From Thermococcus zilligii AN1 (lineage in GTDB: Archaea > Methanobacteriota_B > Thermococci > Thermococcales > Thermococcaceae): DNA of 64,000 nucleotides. Made by a program: the position numbers and the translations under genes. Below the pieces are notes generated by a model. That model saw only the letters and a list, made by a program, of their open reading frames with translations, searched no databases and was not told the origin of the DNA. The stretch is from contig NZ_AJLF01000001.1 of assembly GCF_000258515.1 (NCBI RefSeq), forward strand, positions 558,001 to 622,000, written 5' to 3'. Shown here piece after piece: positions 3,107 to 37,002 of the stretch. Each line of letters opens with the position of its first letter. Position 1 is the first letter of the stretch.

Positions 3107-4327
3107 ATGGAGTGGTACAGTGCACTCATCGTCCTAGTTGGATCTTTGATGGGGATTCTTACCTCATACACCGACGTCAAAACCGGGTTCATATTTGATA
3201 ACCATGTCTTTCCGACCCTTGCCCTCGTGGAAAAGGCAAAAGGGCTGGAAAGCGAAGAAGAAGTCCAGCTTCCAAAGTGGGTGGAAAAAATAATAATCCC
3301 CGCAACGGAGATCGGGTTCATGGTCTATCTTTACCTTGGGCTCGTCAAAGGGGACTATTTGCTGGCAATTTCCGGGATCCTGGGCTTTTTCATCGGGCTG
3401 GTTCTTGGGCTGGCCCTCTATTACATGGGGGCGTGGGCTTCCGGGGACGTCCTGGTTTTGGCCGCGTTCTCGGCTCTCCTGCCTTACCCGCTAAGCTTTG
3501 CCAGGGTCGTCGCCCCCTATGAAGCCTCCTACCCCCTCTATCCCATGGCAATCCTCTTCAACAGTGTACTGGCCGTTTTTCCGTTCCTTTTCGTCTACGC
3601 CCTGGGCGTGCTCCTGGTTAGAAAAAATATCAAGAGACTCAAGGACGTCTTTTCGGAAAAAGCCTACCTCTCGGTTGAGGTGGCCCTCTGGCTTTTGGCC
3701 GGGATTGCCCTGGTTGTCCTTCTAAACCGGCTCGGTCTTTCAGTGGGGGGAGCCTATCAGTACGTCCTTACGATTGTTCTTTTTGCGGTCTTTGGAAAGT
3801 ACAGAAAAGCTGGAGACGTTGCGGGCCTCGTTTCTCTTGCCCACCTGGTTTACCTCACGGGAACGGACGCCCTTTATGCATTTGCCAAACTGCTGGCCGT
3901 GGTGTACTCATTCAAGGTGTTCTTCTCCGTAGTCCGGGTTCTCAGGGAAGAAGCCCTTGTTGAGGAAGTTCCCGTTGAGGAGTTGAGGGAGTGGGACATA
4001 TTAGGAGAGACCATATACATTGAGGGGGATGTCGTTAAGAGGGACAGGAGGGGCTTCTTTGAGGTCCTCAGGGATGCCCTAAGAACCGGGAACATCAAGT
4101 CTCAGAACGCCTATAGGGGTGAAATAATAGCGTCCCCAACGGCCGAAGGGCTCAAGAAGGAACAGTTAGAAAAGCTGAAGGAACTCGTCAGAGAAGGAAA
4201 ACTGGACAACAGGTTCCTGAGGAAGAAGGCGATGCCCTTTGCACCGAGCATCTTTATAGGGTTCCTGATCGCGGCCCTCTGGGGGGACGTGTTCTGGTGG
4301 CTTGTCCTAAAGAGGGCGGGGCTGTAG
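3107..4327 (+). CDS. A24 family prepilin peptidase, EppA/Arc_PepC type
   Basis: A 406-residue integral membrane aspartic protease. The first catalytic Asp is in SYTDVKTGFI (about residue 22) and the second in the GxGD-like motif GAWASGDVLVLA (about residue 115). Several transmembrane helices follow, then a soluble part (WDILGETIYIEGDVV) and a last helix near the C-terminus, matching the archaeal C-terminal extension of this family. It should remove class III signal peptides from pilins at the cytoplasmic face. Start ATG 3107 is preceded by GGAGGGGAAGG. The pilin gene lies directly upstream in the same operon. Confidence 0.85.
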   Translation: MEWYSALIVLVGSLMGILTSYTDVKTGFIFDNHVFPTLALVEKAKGLESEEEVQLPKWVEKIIIPATEIGFMVYLYLGLVKGDYLLAISGILGFFIGLVLGLALYYMGAWASGDVLVLAAFSALLPYPLSFARVVAPYEASYPLYPMAILFNSVLAVFPFLFVYALGVLLVRKNIKRLKDVFSEKAYLSVEVALWLLAGIALVVLLNRLGLSVGGAYQYVLTIVLFAVFGKYRKAGDVAGLVSLAHLVYLTGTDALYAFAKLLAVVYSFKVFFSVVRVLREEALVEEVPVEELREWDILGETIYIEGDVVKRDRRGFFEVLRDALRTGNIKSQNAYRGEIIASPTAEGLKKEQLEKLKELVREGKLDNRFLRKKAMPFAPSIFIGFLIAALWGDVFWWLVLKRAGL

Positions 4328-4385
4328 GGGGTCAGTGAAGGGCGTGGTCATCAGCTTTCAGCAAAGCAAAAGCTCTTCATCCCCC
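4327..4385 (-). ncRNA. C/D box sRNA (2'-O-methylation guide)
   Basis: Read on the minus strand: terminal stem GGGGG (4385-4381); box C ATGAAGA (4380-4374, one base off RUGAUGA); a 12-nt guide; box D' CTGA (4361-4358); spacer AAG; box C' CTGATGA (4354-4348); a second 12-nt guide CCACGCCCTTCA; box D CTGA (4335-4332); closing stem CCCCC (4331-4327). The 12-nt guide lengths, the 3-nt D'-C' spacer and the 5-bp terminal stem are all standard for archaeal C/D RNAs that bind L7Ae, Nop5 and fibrillarin. The targets would read TGAAGGGCGTGG and CAAAGCAAAAGC; I do not recognise them. The last base overlaps the eppA-like stop codon on the other strand. Confidence 0.78.
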
Positions 4386-4442
4386 GTGGGTCCGGCAGGA
4401 AGCCCCGCTTCACGCTTCTGCTGGGCGGCGGGGGCCGAACCC
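4386..4442 (-). ncRNA. GC-rich hairpin joined to the C/D sRNA, H/ACA-like
   Basis: On the minus strand GGGTTCGG (4442-4435) pairs with CCGGACCC (4395-4388), enclosing a second helix CCCCGC/GCGGGG whose loop holds a GTGAA as in K-loops. The outer stem is followed by ACG and then directly by the terminal stem of the C/D RNA. A TATA-like TTTTTAAT at 4472-4465 would start transcription at the base of this hairpin. The inner stem ends 15 nt before the ACG, as in H/ACA RNAs, but the 5' guide pocket is almost absent and the box is ACG rather than ACA. I call it a structured RNA element with uncertain class. Confidence 0.4.
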
Positions 4443-4474
4443 TGAGAAGGTTTGGGGGAAACTCATTAAAAACC

Positions 4475-8380: not shown

Positions 8381-8459
8381 CAATTCTCCCCTCTGAACTG
8401 TGATTTTCATAGGGGCTTAAAAGTCTTGTGATTGATCGGTATGTCCCAGAGAGAACGCA

Positions 8460-8623
8460 AAGTGTGGGCCGGTACAGAGGCCCGCGTTCATCGCTCGCGC
8501 GGGTGATGTCCCCGGCCCTGTGGGCTCGGCGTGAGCACGCTCCGCTCATTGAACCCGAGAACCTTGCGGAGGCGGGTTAACCGAGCCCGTGCGAGGAGAC
8601 TGTGTTGTCCCCTCGCTGTCGGC
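8460..8623 (-). ncRNA. H/ACA box guide RNA with two guide hairpins
   Basis: On the minus strand three stem-loops follow a promoter. The first (8616-8591) is a 9-bp hairpin. The second has a lower stem GGGCTCGG (8588-8581) / CCGAGCCC (8529-8522) followed at once by ACA (8521-8519), and an upper stem CTCCGC/GCGGAG whose loop contains ATGA. The third has GGGCCGG (8518-8512) / CCGGCCC (8472-8466) followed by ACA (8465-8463), and an upper stem CCCGCG/CGCGGG with a GATGA K-loop, 15 nt from the ACA. These are the defining features of archaeal pseudouridylation guides bound by Cbf5, Nop10, Gar1 and L7Ae. In the second hairpin the pocket fits CGUGAGC-U-G-GGUU of the 23S rRNA peptidyl-transferase region. 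Confidence 0.88.
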
Positions 8624-36495: not shown

Positions 36496-36550
36496 GCCTC
36501 AGCGATAGCTGGTGTCCTCACCCCTCGGACCCGAAGCCACTCATCATCGG
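36496..36550 (-). ncRNA. C/D box sRNA with guides fitting 23S rRNA domain II
   Basis: On the minus strand: GCC flank; box C ATGATGA (36547-36541, perfect); guide GTGGCTTCGGGT; box D' CCGA (36528-36525); spacer GGG; box C' GTGAGGA (36521-36515); guide CACCAGCTATCG; box D CTGA (36502-36499); GGC flank pairing with GCC. Both guides are exactly 12 nt. Their complements, ACCCGAAGCCAC and CGATAGCTGGTG, resemble conserved 23S segments (ACCCGAAGCC and GAUAGCUGGU) as I remember them; methylation by the D+5 rule would fall on the G of ACCC-G-AAG and the A of CGAU-A-GCU. Box C overlaps the stop codon of the upstream gene. Confidence 0.88.
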
Positions 36551-37002
36551 CTTCCACGACGTATGAACTCCTTCGATTCAACTATTCTGCCATTTTTAAG
36601 GCAGTAGAGCTTTATCACTTCGGTATCGACCGTTTCTCTCCTGTAGGCGAGGAGGTAGTCTATGAAGTTCCGTATCCCATACCGGACTATTGAGTCCCCG
36701 ACGTACCTGGTTTCGTACAGCAGAACCAGCCTGTCCCTGTTCTCGGCAAGCCACCCGTAAAGGACTTCCCGCTCGGACTTGGATTTTGAGAGGGGGTTGA
36801 GCACGAGGTATGCATCGAACCCGGGGTTTTCCAGGGGGTTTCCGATGAAAACCTCTCCCTCCACCACGAAGGGAAGTCCCTCCGCCAGAACCTTAAGGCC
36901 CCTCCTTGTCCATTCGTTGATGAATATCCCGGCTATCCTCTTCGGGCCGCCGCTCATTAGAATTCTGCCGGACTTTACATTTATGAAGTCGCCCAGCTTC
37001 AT
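36544..37002 (-). CDS. protein of unknown function, RecA-like fold suggested
   Basis: A 152-residue protein. The strand-helix order (GRILMSGGPKRIAGIFINEW, then RGLKVLAEGLPFVVEGEVFI, FDAYLVLNPLSKSKSER and RDRLVLLYETRYVGDSIV) looks like an alpha/beta nucleotide-binding fold without a P-loop, possibly a degenerate KaiC/RecA-like protein. I do not recognise the family. Its stop TGA lies inside box C of the C/D sRNA downstream, so the sRNA could be released from the same transcript or made from an internal promoter (a TATA-like CTTAAAAATG is near 36591-36600). Confidence 0.5.
   Translation of the reverse strand: MKLGDFINVKSGRILMSGGPKRIAGIFINEWTRRGLKVLAEGLPFVVEGEVFIGNPLENPGFDAYLVLNPLSKSKSEREVLYGWLAENRDRLVLLYETRYVGDSIVRYGIRNFIDYLLAYRRETVDTEVIKLYCLKNGRIVESKEFIRRGSR

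Follow-up and report, generated by a model that had tools for sequence, protein, structure and literature searches.

Rfam family RF00065 (snoR9) corresponds to the Pyrococcus abyssi RNA Pab21, and its P. abyssi location, 230,449-575, carries the annotation of a C/D guide, snoR9 (PMC4652768, Toffano-Nioche et al. 2015). P. abyssi RNA-seq places the Pab21 hairpin and snoR9 in one transcript (PMC4652768). When reconstituted with aCBF5, aNOP10 and L7Ae, Pab21 is active in vitro and reaches a plateau of ~50% modification (PMC3726423). Given this published co-transcription and activity, a combined transcript is not new: the fusion of an H/ACA and a C/D guide is already known from P. abyssi and is ordinary for Thermococcales. 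The original prediction, which called a hairpin plus C/D guide transcript unusual in archaea, is right only insofar as this is one known case; within Thermococcales the arrangement is the rule and makes up one Rfam family. Rfam types RF00065 as C/D box only, although the first half is an H/ACA guide.

The window analysed here is a stretch of 64,000 nucleotides from Thermococcus zilligii AN1. Its minus strand carries, within 4327-4442, a hairpin of H/ACA type (4442-4388) that runs straight into a C/D sRNA (4385-4327). RF00065 matches positions 4318-4442 over the full model (1-128) with 93.8 bits and an E value of 2e-20, above the gathering score of 90 bits. The locus is considered an ortholog of the Pyrococcus Pab21/snoR9 dual-guide transcript, with a probability of about 90%. 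This reading draws on the full-length family match, the distribution and synteny of the element, the published co-transcription and in vitro activity of Pab21/snoR9, covariation in the hairpin and the matches between guides and targets. The C/D part is also hit by sR17, sR39, sR12 and other Rfam families, each below its own cut-off; these hits reflect shared boxes. The features of the locus are as follows.

4466-4472, minus strand: TATA-like element TTTTTAA, read from the letters, with similar placement in relatives.
4434-4442, minus strand: H/ACA lower stem, 5' strand, GGGTTCGGC; partner 4388-4396; 5 of the 9 pairs covary.
4427-4433, minus strand: 5' guide of the pseudouridylation pocket, CCCCGCC, complementary to 16S GGCGGGG.
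4402-4426, minus strand: upper (GA) stem and putative K-loop, GCCCAGCAGAAGCGTGAAGCGGGGC, with an A-G mismatch inside, from the alignment and pair counts.
4397-4401, minus strand: 3' guide of the pocket, TTCCT, complementary to 16S AGGAA.
4388-4396, minus strand: H/ACA lower stem, 3' strand, GCCGGACCC; partner 4434-4442.
4385-4387, minus strand: ACG at the position of the ACA box, from the alignment; the C/D terminal stem begins with this G.
4327-4385, minus strand: snoR9 proper, the C/D guide RNA, closed by a terminal stem of 5 bp (GGGGG/CCCCC), from the RF00065 match and the boxes read.
4362-4373, minus strand: D' guide, GCTTTTGCTTTG, 11 Watson-Crick pairs with 23S.
4336-4347, minus strand: D guide, CCACGCCCTTCA, 11 Watson-Crick pairs with 23S.

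The C/D part is well formed, as originally described. The GGGGG at 4385-4381 pairs with the CCCCC at 4331-4327, and all four boxes can be read directly: C (AUGAAGA), D' (CUGA), C' (UGAUGA) and D (CUGA, 4335-4332). Both guide spacers are 12 nt long. The unit has the four boxes, 12-nt guides and terminal stem of an archaeal box C/D RNA, with box C one base off RUGAUGA. The dinucleotide AC separates the GGGGG from the hairpin, which displays the lower stem, internal pocket and upper stem of archaeal box H/ACA RNAs, with one mismatch in the upper stem. That a hairpin directly precedes the C/D RNA is confirmed, but its lower stem (GGGTTCGGC/GCCGGACCC) comprises 9 bp, one of them U-G, rather than the 8 counted before. 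Within the hairpin, an AGA...UGAA arrangement resembles on inspection a K-loop with its sheared G-A pairs and is a putative L7Ae site.

Folding energy of the single sequence is weak evidence for the hairpin and was set aside: compared with shuffles, z is a modest -1.91 for the hairpin and -1.07 for the whole 131 nt. Support is therefore taken from homology and covariation. Covariation was assessed in an alignment of 34 sequences (the window and 33 relatives) against a null of 500 shuffles and of slid partner positions. There are 32 cells changed on both sides, compared with 9.8 +/- 2.3 in the shuffles, and 0 of 500 shuffles reach 32. Sliding the pairing partners destroys the signal, and no slid version comes near the real one. 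The two-sided changes fall in five of the nine lower-stem pairs and in one upper-stem pair across the 34 sequences, so the covariation proposed as a check on the hairpin is found in both stems. These results apply to helices 1 and 2, those of the hairpin; helix 3, the C/D terminal stem, is disregarded, as one of its pairs was bracketed one column off. The hairpin can be regarded as genuine and conserved in structure.

Both C/D guides can pair with rRNA such that the target lies 5 nt from the box; rRNA numbering follows the Rfam-delimited ends of this genome's rRNAs. The D guide CCACGCCCTTCA forms 11 Watson-Crick pairs with 23S 52-62 (GAAGGGCGTGG), which makes G55 its predicted methylation site. 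The D' guide GCTTTTGCTTTG likewise forms 11 with 23S 204-214 (AAAGCAAAAGC), and here the predicted site is G207. The pseudouridylation pocket matches 16S 862-875 (AGGAA-UU-GGCGGGG) by 5 + 7 pairs, the 3' guide TTCCT being complementary to AGGAA at 862-866 and the 5' guide CCCCGCC to GGCGGGG at 869-875. From this pairing, U867 of 16S is a predicted pseudouridine. The CGCC of the 5' guide is near invariant in relatives. A crude pattern search of this genome's HgcF, HgcG and HgcE for a second guide to the same 16S uridine gave none that was convincing, though one could still exist.

The anatomy, homology, covariation and complementarity of a dual guide are all present at the locus. One RNA of ~116 nt, its ends presumed, would be made from its own promoter and would carry an H/ACA unit on the 5' side and a C/D unit on the 3' side. 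The latter would recruit L7Ae, Nop5 and fibrillarin and direct 2'-O-methylation at two 23S sites near the 5' end of that rRNA. The H/ACA unit, with Cbf5, Nop10, Gar1 and L7Ae, would have a single uridine of the conserved AAAGGAAUUGGCGGG segment of 16S as its pseudouridylation target.

A search of 81 genomes with RF00065 gave a match in 41, of which 36 are above the gathering score; all 36 belong to the same genus as T. zilligii, in which most genomes carry the element. The C/D part was also found by pattern search in two further genomes, G021 and G025. At every checked locus with both flanks visible, the RNA sits between convergent genes for a HAD hydrolase and an archaeal A24 prepilin peptidase. 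The RNA gene and its promoter (4327-4474) are flipped in place between loci. In the window and in L021, L022, L023, L026, L028, L040 and L164 they read in the direction of the HAD gene, at the remaining loci in that of the peptidase gene. This suggests a local inversion of the small RNA gene inside the convergent gap. In G021 and G025 the peptidase stop codon is followed immediately by the C/D RNA. Extra GC-rich stretches, some 10-15 nt in length, are inserted between D' and C' in L033, L034, L036, L037, L038, L168 and L171 and could form a small hairpin.

The two halves of the RNA do not always remain together. The hairpin is absent in G021 (L168), G025 (L171) and G029 (L164/L040) and eroded in G038 (L172/L039), and the C/D part is kept in all four. 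Some lineages can thus do without the H/ACA half.

The T. zilligii hairpin itself departs from its relatives at two positions. ACA follows the hairpin in 33 of 33 aligned relatives, and only the window reads AC plus the stem G. The letters ACG had been noticed originally; their reading as an H/ACA-like box, however, misses the ACA of the relatives, which has been lost in this species. Archaeal H/ACA boxes follow ANA (PMC3726423), and the window has ACG instead, although this lies 14 nt 3' of the upper stem, within the expected 14-16 nt. The sister locus L022 reads CCCACAGGGGGG at the junction of hairpin and C/D RNA, from which the simplest change is loss of an A and one G. The second departure is in the upper stem, where pair 28-44 is A-G in the window and in none of the 33 relatives.

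Because the ACA is missing and an upper-stem pair is broken, the H/ACA unit of T. zilligii is probably weakened or disappearing, with a presumed loss of activity. The absence of both ACA and the 28-44 pair, unique among the 34 sequences, together with the loss or erosion of the hairpin in four genomes, favours somewhat the reading that this unit is decaying, either weakened or being lost, and that the C/D unit is intact. Predicted folds add little. In the lowest-energy fold predicted for the window hairpin, the 5' guide is hidden by pairing with the upper stem; this fold lies 8.2 kcal/mol below the functional one, compared with 0.0 in the sister. Six relatives have larger gaps, however, and in several the 5' guide is likewise buried in the predicted fold, which makes the fold argument for decay weak. 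A broader and tentative proposal, for which the odds are a little short of even, is that Thermococcales are repeatedly losing the H/ACA half, with the C/D half staying, and that T. zilligii has been caught midway, without its ACA box. If true, the loci would represent a natural series for the break-up of guide RNA fusions.

Decay is not the sole way to read the altered box. In T. zilligii the lower stem, the putative K-loop and both pocket guides with their complementarity to 16S are still intact, which could leave the unit functional despite ACG. Its 3' guide even pairs better with 16S than in those relatives where it ends in TTCCG, as it places U rather than G opposite A. The same transcript might then carry a fully active H/ACA unit, if the PUA domain of Cbf5 tolerates ACG (or AC plus the stem G) with the C/D stem stacking on it. 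This alternative is possible but less favoured, given that the third A of ACA is invariant in 33 of 33 relatives, that the archaeal boxes are ANA (PMC3726423) and that one upper-stem pair is broken as well.

Under either reading of the box, hairpin and C/D RNA would share a transcript. The hairpin base lies 23 nt downstream of the end of the TTTTTAA (4472-4466), which itself closely follows the stop codon of the HAD ORF upstream. As originally noted, this TATA-like element lies before the hairpin and not before box C, and TTTTTAA or TTTAAA is similarly placed in nearly all hairpin-bearing relatives. The proposed single-transcript anatomy is supported by this promoter-like position and by the P. 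abyssi RNA-seq (PMC4652768). That the two are instead separate adjacent genes with their own transcripts is very improbable: at least three genomes have a C/D unit but no hairpin, so that it can be made alone, but the linker is short, the TATA-like element precedes the hairpin in hairpin-bearing genomes and the P. abyssi transcript is single (PMC4652768). Least probable, with hardly a chance, is that the hairpin is a mere 5' processing or stability element and no pseudouridine guide, as its direct stacking on the C/D terminal stem might suggest, since Pab21 acts as an H/ACA guide in vitro (PMC3726423) and the pocket is conserved and matches 16S.

The Pab21/snoR9 type of RNA places both kinds of rRNA modification guide on one transcript, as published already for P. 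abyssi. The comparative addition made here is modest: the fusion is general in the genus, and its two halves can part. The T. zilligii H/ACA unit without ACA could be used to probe the tolerance of Cbf5 to box loss.

Other combined guide RNAs differ in their partners. Other archaea have tRNA-C/D sRNA transcripts and dicistronic C/D transcripts, in which a C/D guide is also cotranscribed with another stable RNA, but the partner is a tRNA or a second C/D RNA and there is no H/ACA unit (PMC7994747). The Thermococcales multi-hairpin H/ACA sRNAs HgcF/Pab35, HgcG/Pab40 and HgcE/Pab105 similarly carry several guide units per transcript, but every unit is H/ACA and none is C/D. The window contains a three-unit HgcF (Pab35) RNA at 8452-8623 (146 bits), as well as the C/D RNA sR28 at 36497-36551 (71 bits). 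The Pab21 and snoR9 of P. abyssi (RF00065) share with the T. zilligii locus the order of H/ACA at the 5' side and C/D at the 3' side and the family over its full model, with one transcript published there (PMC4652768). T. zilligii differs in that its ACA box is reduced to AC plus G and one upper-stem pair is broken.
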